Origin: a virus
Reading direction: 5' to 3' (one strand)
Length of the DNA stretch: 30,342 bases
Virus record (IMG/VR): IMGVR_UViG_3300022745_000124
Location: 1-30,342 of that record
Part shown: positions 20,364 to 30,342 of the stretch, piece after piece
How the letters are laid out: the number at the start of each line of letters is the position of its first letter
Numbering within the stretch: the stretch's first letter is position 1
Made by a program: the position numbers and the translations under genes
The notes under the pieces: model-generated
Told to the model about the DNA's origin: nothing
Seen by the model: only the letters and a program-made list of their open reading frames with translations
Database searches by the model: none

Positions 20364-22682
20364 TCAATCGTCGTTGTAGGGATAGGAGCGCGAAGGCAGC
20401 GAGGTAGGCTGTTTGAGGTCCAGGCCCTTGTAGCCACGCACCCCCATGGAGTTGCGCCACTTCTCCAGACGCCTGGTGAGCAAGGCATCCGAGAACCTGC
20501 GCTGGGTGCCCACGTACTCGCCACTGAGCTCGGCCCACTGCTTCCAGTCGTTGAAAAGCGTGGCCGTCAGAGCCTTGTGCTCTGGCCCTTGGTTGCAGCG
20601 CTCAGCAATCCACCGGCCCATGGCGTCTTCAGCTTCGAAGTACTCTTCGGTGGCCTCGGCCACGCTTTGAGGTTGCTTAAGCCCCTGCTTTTTCCATTGC
20701 AGACAGCCTTCGAGTGCCCAGGCCAAAATGCCATCGCGCTCGGCCAGAAGCTTCTCGGTCAGGAGCGGGTCACGTTTCTCTGGAGGAACCGTGATCGTGA
20801 AAGGGATCAGGTGCATGCGGCGGCGCATGGCCTCATCGATGTTGCGGATCGCTGGCTTGTGATTGCCTGCAATCAAGAGTTTGAACTGGGGCGCGTAGGT
20901 GAAAAAATCCTGGTGCATCAGCCGCGCCGTGATGTGGTCACCCCCTGTGATCGCCTTGATCTTGGACTCGTTCCAGCGCCTGCCCTGCTCGGTTTCAGTG
21001 GCCGAGACAAAGCGGGCACCACGCAGCTCTGCCAGATCTGTGGGGTGACGATCGGTGCGCGACTCCATGAAGGTGTCCATGGGGGCATTGGCCGCGTAAT
21101 CGCCCAGCACCGTGGAGATCACGTTCACGAACACCGACTTGCCGTTCGCTCCTGTGCCATAAAGGAAAAAGAGTGCGTGCGTGCTCAAGTCTCCGGTCAG
21201 GCAATAGCCGACCACGCGTTGCAGGTACTCCTGCAGCTCCTCATCTCCACCGGTCACATTCACCAGAAAATTACGCCAGACTGGGCAATCGCCTTGAGGC
21301 GTGGCCGTGGTCACCTTGGTCATGCGGCGATCGCGGTCATGCGGCCCACGAGCGCCCGTGCGCAGGTCCACGATGCCGCCGGGTGTGTTGAGCAGCCAGG
21401 CATTGGCGTCCCACTCTTCCACCGTGGCGCTTTGCCGGGGGTCAGAGCGCACAATGCGCTCCAGGGCGGAGATCGTGGCGGCGCTGGCCATGCGGGATTT
21501 CATGCGCGGCTTGTCGGCAAACATGGCAGCGCTGCGACACACCGTGCGGCTCAAGTGCATGATGTACAGCTGCTTGTCCACGTTCCAACGCACACCATTC
21601 CAGACCAGCCACTTGGACCAAGGGGCGCAGTAACGCCAGTCAGCGGCGTATTGGTGCGAGAACGCCAATGCCAGCCCGTCTTCGGTGGAGTAGTCAATGC
21701 CCTCGATCGGCACGGCAATGTCCTGCGCTCCCAATTCACGCATCACAGGCACCCTCTCCCCAACGGCCAAAAATCCCGCAATGTCAAAACCATCCGTCAA
21801 AGCATCGGCCACATCCCAGCCATCGGGCTTTTCTGCGGGAGGCTGCAAAATGGCGCATGACTTGGCACCGGCCTGCAAAATGGCCTGCGAAGCACGATCG
21901 GCATACAGCCAGCCGGGCTTGTCCCGATCGGGCCAGATCAAGACATGCTTGCCCGAGAGCGGCGACCAGTCGGTTTTCTCGACAGGTGCATTGGCGCCGT
22001 GCATGGCCGTGGTGGCGCACACGCCGAATTCAAGCAGGGTTTGGGCGCACTTCTCCCCCTCGACCAGCACCACCTGATCGGCTTTGAGCATGCCAGGCTG
22101 GTTGTACAGCGGACGCGGCTCAGGTGGCGACATCCTGCGGCGAGCCACATCCCATGGCCTGAACTCCTTGCGACCTGACTCTGGGTCATGGCGGTACACC
22201 ACCGCGATGAGCTTGCCGCTGGCATCCTGGTAGTCCCATTTGGCCGTGGCGGGACCGAGTTCATCGACCACTGGAGCTTTGGCCTGGCTTGTAGCCACCG
22301 CTGTGGATGGCATGGCCGAGACACGGCCAAGCCAATCCCGGGCTTTGTCCAGAACCTGTGGGAACTGGGCCTGAACATCGAGGCTGTAGTAGCGGGCGAT
22401 CAGATCGAAGATGTCGCCACCTTCGTTCGTTGCGCGGTCGGTCCACAGGCCCGCCTTGGGGCCAGAGAGCAGCAGCTCCAGGCTGTCGCCCGGGCCACCC
22501 ATCACATCGCCCACCAGGTATTTGTCCTGACGGCGTTTGCCTGAGGGCCAAATGTCCGGTGCCAGCAGGGCCAGCTGATCGTTCAGGGCCGAACGGATCT
22601 CGGCTTTTTCACGTACGGCATCGCTGGCACCTCCCGCTGCTTTGCGCGTGTTCGCGGTGGCTGCATCGTTGAAGTCAAGCAT
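20364..22682 (-). CDS. Phage primase-helicase (Toprim plus P4/D5-type helicase)
   Basis: A 772-aa replication protein. The N-terminal part contains a zinc-less primase-like region (LWTDRATNEGGDIFDLIARY, about 79-98) and a Toprim domain with EGEK at 208-211 and PDRDKPG at 251-257. The C-terminal half is a superfamily 3 helicase of the D5/P4 type with Walker A GTGANGKS at 509-516 and the ATETEQGRRW and AGNHKPAIRN segments downstream. It should prime and unwind the phage origin. The start at 22682 follows GGGAGGG; a longer upstream frame is rejected because it overlaps the preceding gene throughout. It overlaps the winged-helix gene by 8 bases. Confidence 0.9.
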   Translation of the reverse strand: MLDFNDAATANTRKAAGGASDAVREKAEIRSALNDQLALLAPDIWPSGKRRQDKYLVGDVMGGPGDSLELLLSGPKAGLWTDRATNEGGDIFDLIARYYSLDVQAQFPQVLDKARDWLGRVSAMPSTAVATSQAKAPVVDELGPATAKWDYQDASGKLIAVVYRHDPESGRKEFRPWDVARRRMSPPEPRPLYNQPGMLKADQVVLVEGEKCAQTLLEFGVCATTAMHGANAPVEKTDWSPLSGKHVLIWPDRDKPGWLYADRASQAILQAGAKSCAILQPPAEKPDGWDVADALTDGFDIAGFLAVGERVPVMRELGAQDIAVPIEGIDYSTEDGLALAFSHQYAADWRYCAPWSKWLVWNGVRWNVDKQLYIMHLSRTVCRSAAMFADKPRMKSRMASAATISALERIVRSDPRQSATVEEWDANAWLLNTPGGIVDLRTGARGPHDRDRRMTKVTTATPQGDCPVWRNFLVNVTGGDEELQEYLQRVVGYCLTGDLSTHALFFLYGTGANGKSVFVNVISTVLGDYAANAPMDTFMESRTDRHPTDLAELRGARFVSATETEQGRRWNESKIKAITGGDHITARLMHQDFFTYAPQFKLLIAGNHKPAIRNIDEAMRRRMHLIPFTITVPPEKRDPLLTEKLLAERDGILAWALEGCLQWKKQGLKQPQSVAEATEEYFEAEDAMGRWIAERCNQGPEHKALTATLFNDWKQWAELSGEYVGTQRRFSDALLTRRLEKWRNSMGVRGYKGLDLKQPTSLPSRSYPYNDD

Positions 22683-22965
22683 TCGACCCTCCCACTTCTG
22701 GCGCTGCATCTCGTTCTTTGAGCAACTTTTGGGCATAAGCGATCTGCCACTGGTGCAGCTCACCCAGCCGGAATCGGACCAGCCGATTGACGCAGTAGAA
22801 CGGCAGCCCCAGTTCTTTGCGCTTTGCACACTTGGTGAAGTAGTACAGCGGCAAGTTCAGTGCCTTCGATGCACGCTTGGCTGTGAGCAACGGCTCATCG
22901 CTGAAGTCGTTATCGCCTGCGGCTTGCAGGCTCAATGGCGAAGCCAAGGATTCAGGTTTGTTCAT
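22675..22965 (-). CDS. Small winged-helix/excisionase-type DNA-binding protein
   Basis: A 96-aa protein with a MerR/AlpA-like helix-turn-helix core: LLTAKRASKALNLPLYYF, then GLPFYCVNRLVRFRLGELHQW. The pattern of a helix-turn-helix followed by a wing and an anchoring helix is usual for phage excisionase-like or replication-initiator helper proteins. It lies directly upstream of the primase with 8 bases of overlap, so a role in loading the replication protein is a fair guess. Start ATG 22965 was chosen because of an upstream AGGGA; ATG 23004 has none. Confidence 0.6.
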   Translation of the reverse strand: MNKPESLASPLSLQAAGDNDFSDEPLLTAKRASKALNLPLYYFTKCAKRKELGLPFYCVNRLVRFRLGELHQWQIAYAQKLLKERDAAPEVGGSNA

Positions 22966-23024
22966 GAAAAATTCATCCCTGCAGGTGATCTGCGTCACCC
23001 GCATTGGTTGGTAGAAGTTGGAGA

Positions 23025-23047
23025 CCGCAGGACGCTGAGTCCTGCGG
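23025..23047. repeat. Perfect 9-bp stem-loop between early genes
   Basis: CCGCAGGAC-GCTGA-GTCCTGCGG forms a perfect hairpin in the 96-base gap between the Cys-rich gene (stop at 23062) and the winged-helix gene (start 22965). No T-run follows on the minus strand. It may cap the upstream message or modulate expression of the primase part of the operon. Confidence 0.6.
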
Positions 23048-23061
23048 TGGAGTCAGGACAA

Positions 23062-23490
23062 TCAACTCAAGGGTGATTGGTCCAGTTGCATGCGAACAGG
23101 TGGGTACTTGCTGCGCTCGTGTTCCTGCACCATGGCCTCGACATAGGTCGTGACCACGGCATTGATCAGCCGCAGGGCCTCTTGCTGGGTGTAGCTCGAC
23201 AGAGGTCGGTCCATACCGATCTCACCGGCGGCTTCGCCCAGGGGCTTCAGGCATTGCTGCATGGCCGCCAGTTCTGCTTCGGTCGGATCAATCACACATT
23301 CCCCCGTTGGCAATCTGCCTTCGCGCTCGAGCGCACGAATCCCAACGGCGTACAGCCGGTGAAAACAGTCTTGGCAACGTCTTGAGCAAAAGATCCAGTC
23401 GATGGGATACCGCTTGGGGTGCCCCACCTTGAAGCGCAGATCCACGTGGCCGAAGCCCCTGGCTTGACGGGAACACACCCAGCATTTCAT
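23062..23490 (-). CDS. Cys-rich DUF6511-like phage protein
   Basis: A 142-aa protein resembling DUF6511. The N-terminal zinc-binding-like module has Cys3, Cys6, Cys35, Cys39 and Cys42 (MKCWVC ... WIFCSRRCQDCFH), with the conserved-looking ARGFGHVDLRF and PIDWIF segments. The C-terminal helical part (YTQQEALRLINAVVTTYVEAM) has no known motif. The function is unknown; DNA or protein binding is plausible. It lies 12 bases after the preceding gene in the early operon. Confidence 0.7.
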   Translation of the reverse strand: MKCWVCSRQARGFGHVDLRFKVGHPKRYPIDWIFCSRRCQDCFHRLYAVGIRALEREGRLPTGECVIDPTEAELAAMQQCLKPLGEAAGEIGMDRPLSSYTQQEALRLINAVVTTYVEAMVQEHERSKYPPVRMQLDQSPLS

Positions 23491-23502
23491 GCAACCTCGC
23501 CA

Positions 23503-24219
23503 TCACTGCGCCCATGCTGGCCGACCCTGTACGTTGCCAGAGCGTGGGGGGTAGCTGGCACTGGGCTGGGAGGCTGGCACTGCCGATGCGGGAACCGCTG
23601 CCGCAGGAGCACCACCGGAGCCCCCACCCATGCCCCCATCACGCTGCAGCTTGGCTTGCATCAGGTCTGCGTACTCCTTGTGATCGGGCTCGATCACCAG
23701 TCGGATGATGTTGCGGTACTCGCCTTGGCCATCTTTTTCAATACCGATGCGCGCGGCAAATTCAGCACCATCAAGATCGCCGAAGCTTCGGATCTGGCGG
23801 GCACGCTGCGCCTCGGGGCTAGCGTCATCGGGGTGGATGTTGCGTGAGCTGTTGAGCACGGCCTTGATGAAGCTGCGCCCCATCTGCGCCCATGTCGGTC
23901 CCTTGTTAGAATGCAGACCGACATTGCTCCAGATCTTGCGTTTGGCAAACGGGCCTGTGAGCAGCACGAATTCGCAGGACAGGAACACTGCGCCGGTTTC
24001 ATCTGAAGCCGTGGCATAGCCACCCGTCCAGCCCTTGCTGGCATCGTCATAGCCGCCGGGTTTAATGGCCATGCGCACCAGGGCTTGGGTGCCTTTGGGG
24101 ATCAGGTTGAACTCGCCTTGCTGGGCATCGGCGTCATTGAAATCGCACCATGCCCCCGGAGCGCCGTGGGTCGAGGGTTGGCCATAGCTTGCGGCCTGGT
24201 TGTAGCTGTCGTGGTTCAT
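23503..24219 (-). CDS. Putative phage single-strand-binding-type/recombination protein
   Basis: A 238-aa protein. The folded part spans about 20-185, with FNDADAQQGEFNLIPKGTQALVRMAIKPGG, FLSCEFVLLTGPFAKRKIW and a GPTWAQMGRSFIKAVLN segment. The C-terminus is a Gly/Ala/Pro/Ser-rich flexible tail ending in PAWAQ. A beta-rich core plus a disordered glycine tail resembles phage single-strand-binding proteins, and the place in the replication operon fits. The identity is an inference; no signature residue proves it. Start ATG 24219 has AGGA at 9 bases. Confidence 0.55.
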   Translation of the reverse strand: MNHDSYNQAASYGQPSTHGAPGAWCDFNDADAQQGEFNLIPKGTQALVRMAIKPGGYDDASKGWTGGYATASDETGAVFLSCEFVLLTGPFAKRKIWSNVGLHSNKGPTWAQMGRSFIKAVLNSSRNIHPDDASPEAQRARQIRSFGDLDGAEFAARIGIEKDGQGEYRNIIRLVIEPDHKEYADLMQAKLQRDGGMGGGSGGAPAAAVPASAVPASQPSASYPPRSGNVQGRPAWAQ

Positions 24220-24274
24220 TGAAGGTTTTCCTGTTGTGTGGGTTGCGTTCTGATTTGTCTGAGAGGCAGTCGGC

Positions 24275-24760
24275 TCAAAGCTGGACTTCGCCGACCCAGC
24301 GGATCTCGAAGGTGGGTTCGGTGATGAGTTCCTTGCGAGCGGGCTGGAATGCCGCGCGCAGCAGCGGGTGCCAGCGGGCGTAGTCCTGCTCACTCACAGA
24401 AAACTGGACTTGCATGAAGTCCTGCACCCGGTCACCGGCAACGACCATCCGTTCGGCGATCTGGGACAGGTGCTGCTGGTCCCAGACGATTTCTTTGGGG
24501 CTTGAGACATCGATCTGCAGGTCACCGTCGTCGATGCGGAACTTGGCGGCCTCCTCCTGGCCAAGGCTTTCGGCGTGACAGATCTTGTCGGCGTAGCGGA
24601 TTTCCATGGCCCGGTTGATCCGGCCACGCATCTGCAGCGTCCAGTCATGGAGTTGCTGCACCGAGTTGCTGAAATGGGTCAACTGGTCTTTGGGCAGACG
24701 GCTGATCTGGCTCACGGAAAGGTCAGGCAGCGCCGCCTGTTTCAATTGCAGGTGATTCAT
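24275..24760 (-). CDS. Unknown early phage protein
   Basis: A 161-aa protein that I do not recognise. It has a helical N-terminal half (SQISRLPKDQLTHFSNSVQQLHDWTLQMRGRINRAMEIRY split around residue 35) and an acidic beta-like part (FRIDDGDLQIDVSSPKEIVW). No Cys motif, signal or membrane segment is present. Its ATG overlaps the stop of the excisionase-like gene by ATGA, so it is the second gene of the early operon. Confidence 0.65.
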   Translation of the reverse strand: MNHLQLKQAALPDLSVSQISRLPKDQLTHFSNSVQQLHDWTLQMRGRINRAMEIRYADKICHAESLGQEEAAKFRIDDGDLQIDVSSPKEIVWDQQHLSQIAERMVVAGDRVQDFMQVQFSVSEQDYARWHPLLRAAFQPARKELITEPTFEIRWVGEVQL

Positions 24761-25041
24761 GCCGCACCTACATTTCCGGCGATGCGCCTGGAGGTCGAGA
24801 CATGCTGGACGCAGTTCTCGAAAGCGATCACGGCGTTCAAGGGGTAGCTCACCCGTTTGCCCAGCTTGAGATAGGTCGGCCCAGCGCCAGTCATGCGCCA
24901 GCGCTGTAGGGTTTTGGGGCTCATGGCCCATCGCGAAGCTAAATCACCCTCGGTCAGCACCAGCTGCTTGGGCATGGTGGATTCCGGGGAAGTGGCGCTC
25001 AGGAAAACTGGCGCCTCGAGTGCTGGTGTTGCAAGCAGCAT
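24757..25041 (-). CDS. AlpA/excisionase-like helix-turn-helix protein
   Basis: A 94-aa protein with a MerR-type helix-turn-helix of the AlpA/HTH_17 kind at about 29-72: LTEGDLASRWAMSPKTLQRW, then GPTYLKLGKRVSYPLNAVIAFE. It is the first gene of the leftward early operon, has a very good AAAGGAG ribosome-binding site, and faces the operator-like array at 25096-25148. It may regulate the operon or act as a recombination directionality factor. No integrase is visible nearby, so the first role is favoured. Confidence 0.75.
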   Translation of the reverse strand: MLLATPALEAPVFLSATSPESTMPKQLVLTEGDLASRWAMSPKTLQRWRMTGAGPTYLKLGKRVSYPLNAVIAFENCVQHVSTSRRIAGNVGAA

Positions 25042-25229: not shown

Positions 25230-26027
25230 ATGCGCACTTCTGAAATGATCAGGCAAGCCATCGCAGACCAGCCCCAAGGGGCGGTGTTCTCCAGTGCCCA
25301 CTTCTTGTCGGCAGGAACGCGTGCAGCCGTTGACCAGGCGCTCTTTCGGTTGATGAAGGACGGGACGATCGTGCGGGTGGTCAGGGGGCTGTATGCCGCC
25401 GCTGGTCAACACGTGGATGCGCAAACGGTGGCCAGCGCCCTTGCGCGCAAGACAGGCGAGCGCGTGGGACTTGCACCCGCCGAAGGGTCAGGTGACGTGC
25501 TCGTGGTGCCCACCTCGGGCCTGTCACGCACCCTCAAGACTGCGGGGCACACTGTGCAGTTCCAACGCATGAGCCAAAGAAAAGTCCAGCTTGCTGCCAG
25601 CCCTAAGGGCAGGGTTTTACTTACGCTGTGGACCCAGGGCATGAAAAATCTCACGACACTGGAGATCCAACGCGCCACGGGTGACTGGCCAGAGGGCGAA
25701 ATCGACAGCTACGCAGCGCTGATCCCGGCGTGGCTGCGCACCGCCATCCACCAAGCCAATGCGCCCCGCAAGTCCGTCAAAATCGGTTTGTCGGGTGCGT
25801 ACGACTGGTCCAACCCGAACATCAGGGATGACGTGCTGATCGGCAAGGTGCTTGAGAAGCACAAATTCGAGGACGTGGTGCGGCTGTGTTTTTACTACGG
25901 TGTCCCCAAGGTCAAACGCGTGTTCAAGCGGCGTGCGTTTGAGCCCATGACCACAGCCAGTGTGACTCGGATGCTGGGCAACATCAGCAAAGGCCTGCGT
26001 GCCTCACAGGAGCACGCAAATGCATAA
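25230..26027 (+). CDS. abiEi: AbiEi-type antitoxin (DUF6088 family), type IV toxin-antitoxin
   Basis: A 265-aa protein. The N-terminal winged helix-turn-helix (SEMIRQAIADQPQGAVFSSA to IVRVVRGLYAAAG, about 4-60) binds DNA for autorepression in this family. The C-terminal domain (about 70-265) counters the partner toxin and ends in a basic part (VPKVKRVFKRRAFE). AbiEi/AbiEii systems give abortive infection against phages. The gene is divergent from the phage early operon and overlaps abiEii by 8 bases. The start is fixed by the promoter geometry and the absence of in-frame alternatives upstream. Confidence 0.88.
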   Translation: MRTSEMIRQAIADQPQGAVFSSAHFLSAGTRAAVDQALFRLMKDGTIVRVVRGLYAAAGQHVDAQTVASALARKTGERVGLAPAEGSGDVLVVPTSGLSRTLKTAGHTVQFQRMSQRKVQLAASPKGRVLLTLWTQGMKNLTTLEIQRATGDWPEGEIDSYAALIPAWLRTAIHQANAPRKSVKIGLSGAYDWSNPNIRDDVLIGKVLEKHKFEDVVRLCFYYGVPKVKRVFKRRAFEPMTTASVTRMLGNISKGLRASQEHANA

Positions 26028-26778
26028 GCTCAAACTGGAATTCATGCCAGAGGCGACGCAAAAGAACTTCGCACGTCTTAAGGACGACCCCAGACTGACT
26101 GGTTTTACCCTGGTCGGTGGCACTGCATTGGCCTTGCAAATTGGGCACAGGATCAGCGAAGACCTGGACTTCAATATCTTTGGTCAGAAATTGCCCATCA
26201 GAGCCATCGATGGGCTTCTGGATGAGTTGGCTGCCGGTGGTGCCACGATTGAAAGCCTGATCACATCTGAACAAAAGCTGGGATTCAAAATCAATACGTC
26301 AGAGAACCTGGACCACTACATTCAGGACTACCTGATCGATGGTGCCAAGGTGACGTTTCATTCACGCAATGAAAGTGATCGGCCCAAGGCGCAAATTGAC
26401 TTCCTGAAGTCAGCCCCAAAGGTGGTGGTTTTCAAGGGAGGATTTGATGTGCTGGGCGTCGATGGGCTTCTTGTCATGAAAAGCATCGTCGTCTATGACC
26501 GCGTGAAATCTCGGGACATCTACGATTTGATGGTCCTCACGAGAGATCATGACTACACCCTGGATGTCATCTTTGCTGCCATCGATACCTATCAGCCCAT
26601 CAGAAACAAAGACCCCGAACACTTCAAGAGTGTGGTCACCGGCGTGATGCCGCTAGACAAAAGCGACGAGGGGTTTTCCAGCATCCATCTGAATGTGAAG
26701 ATGGATGATATCTACAAGTACTTCAAAAAACTGATCAACGAATATGAGATAAGGGCCGTTCAACAGTTGCGACCATAA
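26020..26778 (+). CDS. abiEii: AbiEii-type nucleotidyltransferase toxin
   Basis: A 252-aa nucleotidyltransferase-fold toxin of the AbiEii/AbiGii family, whose members nucleotidylate tRNA or otherwise block growth. Motif 1 is VGGTALAL at 32-39 followed by HRISEDLDF at 43-51, with the catalytic Asp48 and Asp50. The third carboxylate is probably Asp127 in AQIDFL. The motif RVKSRDIYDLMVL at 161-173 is also typical. All key residues look intact. ATG 26020 with AGGAG at 7 bases was chosen over the GTG at 25999. It overlaps abiEi, as usual for the antitoxin-toxin order. Confidence 0.9.
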   Translation: MHKLKLEFMPEATQKNFARLKDDPRLTGFTLVGGTALALQIGHRISEDLDFNIFGQKLPIRAIDGLLDELAAGGATIESLITSEQKLGFKINTSENLDHYIQDYLIDGAKVTFHSRNESDRPKAQIDFLKSAPKVVVFKGGFDVLGVDGLLVMKSIVVYDRVKSRDIYDLMVLTRDHDYTLDVIFAAIDTYQPIRNKDPEHFKSVVTGVMPLDKSDEGFSSIHLNVKMDDIYKYFKKLINEYEIRAVQQLRP

Positions 26779-26957: not shown

Positions 26958-27560
26958 TTAGCGAACATCAGCTGTGTAGCCAGGCAGGTTCTTCCGATAG
27001 TTGCGTATGAGTTCGACTACACGCTCGACGGAAATCAGATAGTCTTGTGCGGACTCGGGAGTTGGGATGACCTTCGCGTGCGCGACTTGATTTCGCAACT
27101 GCCGCAGGTTCGCTACCAAATGCTTTGTGCCGACTGGAAGTACGTCTGAGTCCATGATTGCGTGATAGACCTTGAGTTGATTCTCAAGTGGATCAACCAC
27201 AACTCCAGTCTGCCGTCCAAGTTTATGAAGCTCTCCATCCAGTGTTGCCCAACCTTCAATGATCGTTGCTGTCGGCTCAGATCTTGCCGTTAACCACTTC
27301 ACGCCTGTGTCCTCGGCGCTCAGTTTGGCTCCAGTTTTAGTCAACTCTGAAGTTTGTTGCTTCGAGGCCAGATCAACCGTACTTGCTAGCACCTGCTTTG
27401 TTGCTATCTCAAACTCCGCCTCCAATGGGCCAGCCTTCACCTTGCGTAGCAATGGAATCAGGTCAAGTAGCTTCTTGCGGAAGATTAGGCCAAGAAGAAC
27501 ACTTGCTACAGGCCATGCTAAAGAATCAACTAACTTACTGATGAACGTGAGCCAGTCCAT
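26958..27560 (-). CDS. Membrane-anchored protein with HEPN-type RX4H motif
   Basis: A 200-aa protein. Residues about 5-27 form a hydrophobic helix (FISKLVDSLAWPVASVLLGL) followed by positive charges (FRKK), so the bulk should be cytoplasmic. A helical linker with EAEFEIATKQVLAS follows. The C-terminal domain has RNQVAH at 156-161 inside LRQLRNQVAHAK, a match to the RX4-6H motif of HEPN RNases and DUF4145-like proteins. GGAG precedes ATG 27560. The gene runs opposite to abiE and sits alone, with lower GC than the phage genes. A defence or stress effector role is inferred from context. Confidence 0.6.
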   Translation of the reverse strand: MDWLTFISKLVDSLAWPVASVLLGLIFRKKLLDLIPLLRKVKAGPLEAEFEIATKQVLASTVDLASKQQTSELTKTGAKLSAEDTGVKWLTARSEPTATIIEGWATLDGELHKLGRQTGVVVDPLENQLKVYHAIMDSDVLPVGTKHLVANLRQLRNQVAHAKVIPTPESAQDYLISVERVVELIRNYRKNLPGYTADVR

Positions 27561-27753: not shown

Positions 27754-27867
27754 CTAGATTTCATCAGCCCTCCGTTCTCTAAGGTCACCGACTCGGGTTG
27801 CTCGGATGAGCTTAACGATGTTCGGATTGGGTGACAACGCTTCTGCGATCTCAAAGGCGTTTCGCAT
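27754..27867 (-). CDS. Possible 37-aa third gene of the unknown operon, or gene remnant
   Basis: Reading on from the 318-aa gene, ATG 27867 overlaps its stop as TGATG. The frame gives a compact 37-residue product (MRNAFEIAEALSPNPNIVKL then IRATRVGDLRERRADEI) with plausible composition. The overlap suggests translational coupling. It could be a true small protein or the surviving start of a deleted gene. A 20-codon frame with a good GGAGG site begins at ATG within its last codons (27763). Confidence 0.35.
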   Translation of the reverse strand: MRNAFEIAEALSPNPNIVKLIRATRVGDLRERRADEI

Positions 27868-28823
27868 CACAACGCTAACCGATATAACCCTTGACGGCGC
27901 TGACGAATTACCAGTTTTTCATATGCGTGCAACGGTCCCTCATACCGATGATCACCACGGTTGGATGCCTTCAACTTGAAAACATCTATCGGCCGCTCAC
28001 TGGCGAGTCCAGCTTCTCTCATGAGGAACTCAGCAGACTGCGCCTGATTTTGATGTTTCCAGAGTGCCGAGAATAGATGCGCCTGTGCCTCGGTCAAATG
28101 AATGGGACCATGCGACCAGTCCGCCAGATGCACCCAGGCGAAGTCTTCACTGAACGGCCCATGGACAGCCACGCTCGGGATGCTGTCTTGCACGCTGTCA
28201 GTTTTTTCACCTTGGTCCGAATCGAGCAATCGCAATGCCAAACCATGCAGGGCAAACCTGTCTTCCAGATGCCACCACGTAGCTGTCTCGGCCAAAGGAT
28301 CCAGTGGTTGTCGCACCAAAGGACGTGGCGTGATCACCCAGCTTTGGCGGCGCGGTTCGGGTCCATGGAAAATCCGCAGCCCGTGACGCTCCACCAAGTC
28401 AATACGGCGCGCAAGCACCACCGGCCGCTTCTTGTACCGACCAATGTCCCACACACCATCGACGATCTGAGTGGCCGTTGTGTGCGGCGAGATGTCCATT
28501 GCGCCATGCAGTTTTCGAATCAACCATTCGTCGTCCAGCCTCCAACTGCGCTGACTGGCAGGATCCAGCGCAAACGGTCCACAGTCCGGGCACTGCACCA
28601 TGAGCCCATCGTCCGTCCTAAAGATCGGACCACGGTACAGGCCACAGAAAGCACAAGCGGCATCCCGGCTGTTGACCACGCCAGGCACAACGGCCTTCGT
28701 CTGCTTGAGAAGCTCCAGCGCAGAAATTTCTTCATCGTGCAGATTGCATTCCAAGGATGCGCTGCCCCGCACGAACATCAAAGCGGCCAAGCTGATAGCT
28801 TGTTGATTGTGTGTCAACTCCAT
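27867..28823 (-). CDS. Unknown zinc-ribbon protein with C-terminal helical domain
   Basis: A 318-aa protein without a family that I recognise. Cys57, Cys60, Cys78 and Cys81 (CAFC ... CPDC) form a zinc ribbon. The C-terminal 80 residues (from about 239: GPIHLTEAQAHLFSALWKHQ, ending QRRQGLYRL) resemble a winged helix. A basic middle segment (RYKKRPVVLARRIDLVERHG) may touch nucleic acid. AGGTG precedes ATG 28823, 7 bases after the stop of the 413-aa gene, so the two are one operon. A sensing or DNA-binding role is inferred only. Confidence 0.65.
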   Translation of the reverse strand: MELTHNQQAISLAALMFVRGSASLECNLHDEEISALELLKQTKAVVPGVVNSRDAACAFCGLYRGPIFRTDDGLMVQCPDCGPFALDPASQRSWRLDDEWLIRKLHGAMDISPHTTATQIVDGVWDIGRYKKRPVVLARRIDLVERHGLRIFHGPEPRRQSWVITPRPLVRQPLDPLAETATWWHLEDRFALHGLALRLLDSDQGEKTDSVQDSIPSVAVHGPFSEDFAWVHLADWSHGPIHLTEAQAHLFSALWKHQNQAQSAEFLMREAGLASERPIDVFKLKASNRGDHRYEGPLHAYEKLVIRQRRQGLYRLAL

Positions 28824-28830
28824 TTACACC

Positions 28831-30072
28831 TCACTCAAACAAGCTGGTAGTCACGGTTTTCGATTGCGCCGGCTCTCGGTCGGGTTTGAGCATCTGCTGC
28901 GCCTTCAAGATGCCCAGCTGAACCAGGTAACCCTCCAACTGCGCACGCAGCTTCTCATCGAACTTGTGCAGGTTCAGTCGGCCCTTGCTGGTGATCTCCA
29001 CACTGACCACCTGACAGCGGTTCTTGCCCTGCATCGGTGCCAGATAAAAGTTGAGCACTGCTGCCTGGATGGTCCAGCCACGTGCGAGCGGGTTTTCTGC
29101 TCCGAAGTAGTCCTGCAGCAGCTCCGTCACGCAGCGCTGATCACTGGACGCACTGGCCGCGCACTCCATCTTGAGCTGCCCGCAACCGCTGACCACCGTC
29201 ACGCTCTTGACCTGCAACCCAACGAATCCATCATCAATGGCCTGCGGTATGTTCAGCCCCAAGCGCAACGTGGACAGGTTCAGGCGTGGCGTCTGGATAC
29301 GCTGCGCATCGGCATCCACACCGAGCAAGTGCCTTGCAAACGCCTCACACAGCATGGCGTGGTACTTGGCTCCACCACGGATGATGGTGCGGGTCACACC
29401 GGTGGCCTGTGCGTATTCCAGCACCATGTGGATGTTCGGGCTGCCCACCCTACGTTGCAGCTGACTGCCCTCGAATTCCAGCTTGGCCGTGGCCAGGTCT
29501 TTGGCGTGGATGGAGACCAGCTGCGTACCGCGCGCCCGGTCCAACAAATTGACCACGCACACCTCGCCACATCCCAACTCCCGCTGGTAGAAGCCTTTGA
29601 TGGCATCACCGAATGCAGCGATCGACTCCTCGTCACGCTTGATGGTCCCCTTGAGCCCCAAGTCGTGCTGCTGAGCTTGTTGACCGTGGTGGTCCAGGTA
29701 TTCGATTTCCGCTGCGGCCTCGAACAACGCCGGGTGATGGACATACAGCCAGAAGGCCCGGTGAAGGTCGTTCTTGCAGGCGATGAGTCCCATCAACTCC
29801 GTTGGCCGGTCATGCGCGGCCTGAAACATGGCCTGCTTGCCCAATGGGTGAGCCAGCAGCGTACTGGCATGTAGCCCGGCCACGATACGGTCACGCATGG
29901 CGACATTCGGGTGCAGCTGAATCAAGCCAACCAGGCTCCTGGATGCATGGACCGAGTCATGCCAAATCCAGCCCTTGGGCAAAGGCAGGGTGTGGCGCTC
30001 GATGAAGGTTTTGAGGGTGTCGTCGACAGGCAGGTTCAGCAGTATGTCGGCATAGGTCTGAGGGCGGCTCAT
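28831..30072 (-). CDS. Unknown 413-aa protein, first gene of a two- or three-gene operon
   Basis: A 413-aa soluble protein that I cannot assign. It has no signal peptide, membrane helix, Walker A motif or obvious nuclease signature. Helical segments occupy the first 170 residues (IGLI-type amphipathic helices, EYLDHHGQQAQQHDLGLKG), and the C-terminal half is mixed alpha/beta (VSVEITSKGRLNLHKFDEKL). AAAGGAG lies 7 bases before ATG 30072, and a strong promoter lies at 30173-30200. The frame continues upstream of the ATG but that part contains the promoter. Its position beside AbiE and a HEPN protein suggests accessory or defence cargo. Confidence 0.65.
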   Translation of the reverse strand: MSRPQTYADILLNLPVDDTLKTFIERHTLPLPKGWIWHDSVHASRSLVGLIQLHPNVAMRDRIVAGLHASTLLAHPLGKQAMFQAAHDRPTELMGLIACKNDLHRAFWLYVHHPALFEAAAEIEYLDHHGQQAQQHDLGLKGTIKRDEESIAAFGDAIKGFYQRELGCGEVCVVNLLDRARGTQLVSIHAKDLATAKLEFEGSQLQRRVGSPNIHMVLEYAQATGVTRTIIRGGAKYHAMLCEAFARHLLGVDADAQRIQTPRLNLSTLRLGLNIPQAIDDGFVGLQVKSVTVVSGCGQLKMECAASASSDQRCVTELLQDYFGAENPLARGWTIQAAVLNFYLAPMQGKNRCQVVSVEITSKGRLNLHKFDEKLRAQLEGYLVQLGILKAQQMLKPDREPAQSKTVTTSLFE

Positions 30073-30172
30073 TTGTTGTCTCCTTTGTTGTTGTTTGTTT
30101 CGGCAATGAGGCGTCTCAACCCCCGATATGAAGATCTGGGGCTTGGGATGAGTTTTGCCGGATATATGGATA

Positions 30173-30200
30173 AATATACAGCTTTTTGGAAATCTGTCAA
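30173..30200 (-). promoter_or_regulatory. Sigma70-type promoter of the unknown operon
   Basis: On the minus strand TTGACA (30200-30195) is a perfect -35 box, followed by a 16-base spacer and TATATT (30178-30173, 5 of 6). Transcription would start near 30166, leaving a leader of about 94 bases before ATG 30072. The -35 box lies only 17 bases from the repeat array, so an element's end abuts the promoter. Confidence 0.65.
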
Positions 30201-30216
30201 AACCGTCAATCCAGGC

Positions 30217-30342
30217 TGTCACTTTTCACCACATAGAGTCCATTTCGTTTTCGGCATATAGGAGCCACTCCGTTTTCGGCATATACGAGCCAGTGCGTTT
30301 TCGGCACTTACAGGCCAGCTGATTTTCGGCACATAGGAGCCA
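30217..30342 (+). repeat. Five 25-bp tandem repeats, probable end of an IS21/Tn402/Tn7-type element
   Basis: Units with core TTTTCGGCAYATAGGAGCCA have their TTTTC at 30223, 30248, 30273, 30298 and 30323, an exact 25-base period. The first unit is the most divergent (TTTTCACCACATAGAGTCCA), and just before it lies TGTCA at 30217. Transposons of the IS21, Tn402 and Tn7 groups begin with TGT and carry arrays of transposase-binding repeats inside each end. This is why I read 30217 as a left end, with the element running out of the window. No transposase gene is in view, so the family is not proven. Confidence 0.5.

Follow-up and report, generated by a model that had tools for sequence, protein, structure and literature searches.

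The two-gene operon described here, A-B, is very probably inducible by DNA damage, and for our preferred reading, that it is a damage-inducible core operon of widespread temperate phages with a serine integrase and acts in their induction step, we put the chances at about even. Since the operon is apparently silenced by each lineage's own damage sensor, A and B probably help the virus to react to damage of the host DNA rather than forming optional cargo for phage defence. The new point is the regulation, that is, one operon whose damage sensor is swapped between lineages. The window, by which we mean the whole stretch of DNA analyzed, is a virus record of 30,342 bp with terminase, P4-type primase and early genes, and is a prophage fragment.

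An earlier note on this DNA had described a tight operon of two genes, coding for 413 and 318 amino acids and lying 7 bases apart, and the ORF calls bear this out, with A followed by B on the minus strand (Table 1); the interval 28831-30072, under which the pair had been entered, spans gene A alone. Good ribosome-binding sites, AGGAG for A and GAGGTG for B, are present as claimed, and so is the one strong promoter shared by the pair, since TTGACA-16-TATATT is the strongest promoter match of the region and the single promoter for A-B. The transposon-like end turned out to belong to an IS21-family element, its repeats sharing 74% identity with DNA from a locus annotated as istA, and together with the end of the record it occupies the place where relatives have the integrase and DUF2924 genes. 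Because the IS21 end starts about 20 bp upstream of the A-B promoter and the LexA box of the window is one base off, this particular copy of A-B may be decaying or rewired.

Table 1 Features of the A-B operon and its surroundings in the window.
Feature	Position	Strand	Remark
Gene A	28831..30072	-	413 aa from ATG
Gene B	27867..28823	-	318 aa
Zinc-ribbon codons, Cys57 to Cys81 of B	28581..28655	-	
Ribosome-binding site of A, AGGAG	30080..30084	-	7 nt before ATG
Sigma-70-type promoter of A-B, TTGACA-16-TATATT	30200-30173	-	11/12 consensus bases
LexA-box-like site CTGTATATTTATCCAT	30166..30181	-	overlaps the -10; differs at one base from the family consensus CTGTATATTTATCCAG
IS21-family element end	30223..30342		25-nt direct repeats
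Phage early genes: AlpA-like HTH, two unannotated early proteins, DUF6511, P4-type primase	20364..25041	-	prophage context
AbiEi-AbiEii pair	25230..26778	+	variable cargo between B and the early genes, outside the A-B unit
200-aa gene, weakly HEPN-like C-terminus	26958..27560	-	cargo, outside the A-B unit

Gene A was found in about 100 loci (30 viral contigs and 80 genome loci), the carriers being mostly Betaproteobacteria and hosts of the Xanthomonadales type, and MAGs. When co-location of the pair was surveyed, every locus with a long enough contig had B immediately after A on the same strand, the two genes being 7 bp apart or overlapping slightly. The sole exception was a remnant of A (L070), and the pairing is thus not due to chance. 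The farthest members of the close family retain 48-50% identity in A and less, 32-35%, in B, and remote homologues drop to 17-20%; a profile that included these matched in 30 genomes out of 398 in a sample of the phylum and in 15 out of 369 in a sample of the class. On an Eleftheria terrae plasmid, a 313-aa gene (L032:14788-15729) combines the N-terminal portion of A with the C-terminal portion of B, and its neighbours are a recombinase, DUF2924 and early genes like those of A-B loci. It was rejected as an independent member of the family, as it looks like a fusion created by an internal deletion in A-B. The ORF clusters 18, 21, and 24 next to A were likewise discarded, being antisense ORFs of B, CapH or CapP.

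The regulation of the window branch is indicated by a conserved LexA-type box over the -10 element, with 40 upstream regions carrying CTGTATATTTATCCAG or a close variant and three of these the perfect CTGTATATTTATACAG. Among 22 non-redundant sequences, conservation over the 230 bp upstream peaks at the 16-bp segment CTGTATATTTAT[C/A]CAG (97%, the mean being 68%); this group was chosen by the box pattern itself, yet all members of the branch with enough upstream sequence carry the box. It resembles the boxes of the hosts, where lexA and recA carry the same type, CCAG half-sites included, and the copy in the window has its one deviant base at the end, which reads CCAT. Within three Limnohabitans genomes of about 3 Mb each, to which the counts of the strict pattern apply, there are 5 occurrences: three before an intact A, one before a remnant of A, and one before umuD. 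The A-B box is the only such box in the Limnohabitans prophage, and no CI/S24-type repressor was among the Pfam matches listed for 41 of its proteins; as these are the first 25 of 39 families, a weak CI-like protein could be missed.

Instead of the window-type LexA box, the sister branches have genes for an XRE repressor and an M78 peptidase, which are divergent from A-B. The PADLOC profiles matched are CapP (E=1e-50 to 1e-56) and CapH (E=1e-22 to 1e-25), both of which are absent from the window branch. Between the divergent genes, an operator-like palindrome precedes A, with arms that covary between the lineages (GTATCTCG/CGAGATAC, GTATCGTT/AACGATAC, and TATCGAAT/ATTCGATA), and this site occurs nowhere else in a 67-kb prophage. 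Remote homologues were surveyed at 20 loci fetched from the phylum and class searches. CapP is present at 10 of these, nine times together with CapH, and an M78 peptidase lies upstream at four (L302, L304, L311, and L316), with an XRE domain visible beside or in the peptidase in at least two. A LexA-like S24 protein is found directly upstream at three (L307, L312, and L314), with two further cases besides the 20 loci (L180 and L241), and a WYL/WCX regulator at one (L310); the remaining two had no regulator type assigned. Regulators of the LexA/S24 and IrrE/M78 types generally respond to DNA damage. For CapHP and CapW, a response to ssDNA or DNA damage is described in the literature (PMC13373217). 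Judged by these upstream regions, damage-type control appears to be the constant feature of A-B, with the identity of the regulator free to change.

Neighbouring genes at the A-B loci were called mechanically. The gene order in the window group is cluster 6, a serine recombinase and DUF2924 (leftward), A and B (rightward), a variable slot, and then the AlpA-like HTH with other early genes, DUF6511 and the primase. The slot is filled by AbiE in the window, by AbiL/RloB-like genes in Limnohabitans parvus, and by other genes elsewhere. Of the 51 loci that extend 8 kb or more upstream, 47 have a serine recombinase or DUF2924 beside A-B, and when the search was reversed, starting from the integrase and from an early gene, A-B was present in every contig spanning the interval between the two.

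It was from the surroundings that the earlier note had inferred an undescribed defence system. The AbiEi-AbiEii pair is real, and the HEPN-like neighbour does match HEPN_Swt1, albeit weakly (E=0.0022) and below Pfam's cut-off. What survives of the proposal is the operon, the two undescribed and strictly co-conserved families and the adjacent defence genes. The role as defence cargo is not supported. A-B belongs to the core of these prophages, almost invariably adjoining the serine integrase and DUF2924, with AbiE and AbiL as the variable part, and its promoter control is of the damage type. A prophage induction module accounts for A-B no less well than defence does.

Defence is still the main rival, as CapH+CapP and WYL (CapW) regulators control immune operons and are better known there than in phage switches (PMC13373217). 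A-B would then be a prophage-encoded antiphage system, acting by abortive infection or on superinfection, where infection would give rise to ssDNA or damage, the repressor would be removed, and A-B would block the incoming phage DNA. Prophages do carry such systems, BstA being an example (PMC8585504), and AbiE and AbiL-like genes lie in the same neighbourhood, but A-B is invariant within a phage lineage where the adjacent defence genes vary, its link to the integrase is constant, and neither a PADLOC match nor an effector domain was recognised in A or B (Pfam, NCBIfam, PADLOC). We therefore consider a defence system somewhat unlikely.

The cargo around A-B contains further genes of interest in their own right. 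A pair coding for 339 and 246 amino acids (clusters 32/33; L002:8265-10018 and 7 other loci) lies between B and the early genes. Its 246-aa member reads like a nucleotidyltransferase (GGTAA...TKDLDIV), neither protein has a PADLOC match, and the 339-aa protein has no credible Pfam match (best E 0.08); possibly the pair is an AbiE-like system outside current models. The slot between DUF2924 and CapP holds a protein of 290 aa that carries an OST-HTH/LOTUS domain at its C-terminus (E=4e-9) and has no PADLOC match (cluster 25; L101:7609-8481 and 11 other loci). A small gene, PIN-like by eye (169-181 aa; L177:8219-8761 and L316:6910-7419), separates an XRE-M78 fusion from A, and its L177 copy has no Pfam match. 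Large cargo proteins of 939-1020 aa adjoin the A-B module at L110, L122, and L300 and are possible defence genes.

The presence of portal, terminase and other head or tail genes identifies the elements of L. parvus and of genome G256 as prophages. Integration sites differ between elements, which lie beside either tRNA or tmRNA genes. In the branch linked to tRNA, the distance from the end of B to tRNA-Phe/Ala/Lys, at the edge of the element, is a few hundred bp, and A-B is directed toward the att end and away from the early genes, which means that A-B cannot simply be the first part of a lytic operon. No conserved promoter was found before the early genes, where the borders of the cargo vary. 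In two genomes the A-B module is present beside tRNA-Phe in two copies of the same orientation, 67-70 kb apart (L172-L176 in G256 and L185-L186 in G201), and these are tandem prophages in one site.

With a serine recombinase and DUF2924 as constant neighbours, and with DNA-binding folds predicted for both proteins (see below), A-B might have the narrower role of assisting the adjacent integrase as a recombination directionality factor or an accessory factor of integration, produced only when the element is to excise. A-B stays the same, however, where integration sites differ, and DUF2924 is an equally good candidate for this task, so that we find such a narrow role hardly probable.

Neither A nor B matched a family in Pfam, NCBIfam or PADLOC, in agreement with the earlier note; A does match phrog_37634 (E=6e-36), a PHROG of unknown function, and this is the sole family match of either protein when PHROGs are included. 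There was no match to A or B by tblastn in phage GenBank records, and sequence-profile searches of the PDB gave nothing at E<=10 for A and chance-level matches only for B. The AlphaFold2 model of A (mean pLDDT 83.6, pTM 0.61) was compared with the PDB using Foldseek, with the best matches to CENP-N (E=4e-5 to 9e-4, probability near 1.0, TM only 0.2-0.3 of the query) and E. coli RdgC (E=2e-4, probability 1.00, TM only 0.29 of the query). In VIA-align, CENP-N aligned over about 160 residues at Z 8.3-9.8 (positions 62-261 of the model, a stretch that takes in the first TBP-like domain and some of the helical N-terminus), RdgC gave Z 7.9 over 212 residues (127-393, rmsd 5.3), and Iml3 gave Z 6.8. 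Given these matches and the known resemblance of Chl4/Iml3 to RdgC and TBP (PMC4080450), A is predicted to consist of a helical N-terminus and two TBP-like domains in an arrangement like that of RdgC and CENP-N.

The model of B (pLDDT 87, pTM 0.59) aligns at residues 1-97 with winged helices into which the ribbon is inserted (VIA Z up to 7.7, a middling score, over about 55 residues), and at residues 218-318 with many domains of the OmpR/PhoB family (VIA Z 6.2-7.3, again middling, over 78-87 residues; best Foldseek E only 0.04). The predicted architecture is thus an N-terminal winged helix with an inserted zinc ribbon, a middle beta domain, and a C-terminal winged helix like that of OmpR/PhoB. 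The zinc ribbon reported earlier at Cys57/60/78/81 is present and of the type CxxC-CxxC, with C57, C60, and C78 invariant and C81 nearly invariant in 63 homologues, and is missing from many remote ones. From the two models we infer that both A and B bind DNA, probably together.

The fold of A raises the alternative that A-B serves recombination and repair or the damping of SOS, with an RdgC-like A coating duplex DNA, antagonising RecA, and protecting or processing the phage DNA during damage. RdgC is indeed among the best fold matches of A, and the promoter control is of the damage type, but A was rejected as a sequence homologue of RdgC (no Pfam hit; hhalign of A3 against the alignment of host RdgC, probability 0.3%), 19 of 20 host genomes carry their own RdgC, and neither B nor the link to the integrase would be explained. 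We regard this alternative as improbable.

Action in the induction step is the simplest reading, as what stays constant is A and B together with the serine integrase and some regulator or box of the damage type. In lysogens of the window branch, host LexA at the -10 box would keep A-B off, and in the sister branches the phage's own CapH repressor would do so. DNA damage would lead to self-cleavage of LexA, or to cutting of CapH by CapP, and A and B would be made. As two putative DNA-binding proteins they could then trigger or execute the induction step, through excision control and/or the switching on of lytic genes; whether A-B is an induction switch in this sense we see as roughly evenly balanced. 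The control of integrative elements by ImmR-type regulators is reportedly a comparable case, and LexA-controlled antirepressors of other phages offer a precedent for induction held by LexA (PMC3121763, PMC4551915). Counting against induction are the link of CapHP and WYL to immune operons, the deviant box of the window, the partial nature of the fold matches, and the finding of no repeated DNA motif in the prophage as a candidate target of A-B.

A bolder reading, which we offer tentatively and hold to be possible rather than likely, is that A-B is a phage stress-response effector of a new kind. It would pair a winged-helix partner with a DNA-binding protein like CENP-N and RdgC, whose helical N-terminal domain occupies the position that the pyrin domain has in CENP-N, and the two would be interchangeably under most known bacterial DNA-damage sensors (LexA, CapHP, LexA-like S24, M78, and WYL). 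The effector would be an induction switch for prophages in general or, alternatively, an immune complex triggered by damage.

Some prophages have no recognisable CI-type repressor, which makes their sensing of damage a question, and through A-B the induction mechanism of a common phage family becomes testable. That the A-B proteins are kept while the damage sensor changes between at least four types shows what selection preserves. Phage integration modules, too, contain CapHP and WYL regulators, which are commonly taken to indicate an immune operon, and association with them alone is therefore no proof of defence.

Among known proteins, the top structural matches of A are CENP-N/Chl4 and CENP-L/Iml3 of the eukaryotic inner kinetochore, a likeness in fold only, with no sequence match even at E=10. 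RdgC (PF04381) may resemble the predicted fold of A over residues 127-393, but A is without Pfam hit or profile-profile similarity to it and has an extra N-terminal helical region. BstA, which acts by abortive infection, is like A-B a conserved prophage gene in the lysogeny region (PMC8585504); its KilA-N domain was not found in A or B (Pfam), and A-B comprises two genes, is not located downstream of cI, and has damage-type control instead of high lysogenic expression. The LexA-controlled induction operons (tum of phage 186, antC of N15, the antirepressors of the Gifsy phages, and GIL01) resemble A-B as prophage operons with a LexA box at the promoter that would let SOS trigger the phage (PMC3121763, PMC4551915). 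They encode a small repressor-binding protein, whereas A and B are two large proteins with predicted DNA-binding folds that match no annotated family, no cognate CI-type repressor is among the matches listed in the Limnohabitans prophage, and relatives of A-B replace the LexA box by CapHP, S24, M78 or WYL regulators. With the CapH-CapP and CapW immune operons A-B shares, in the sister branches, the divergent CapH (E ~1e-23) and CapP (E ~1e-53) and, in one remote relative, a WYL regulator; it differs from them in not being CBASS, BREX or another named immune operon and in being fixed beside a phage integrase.
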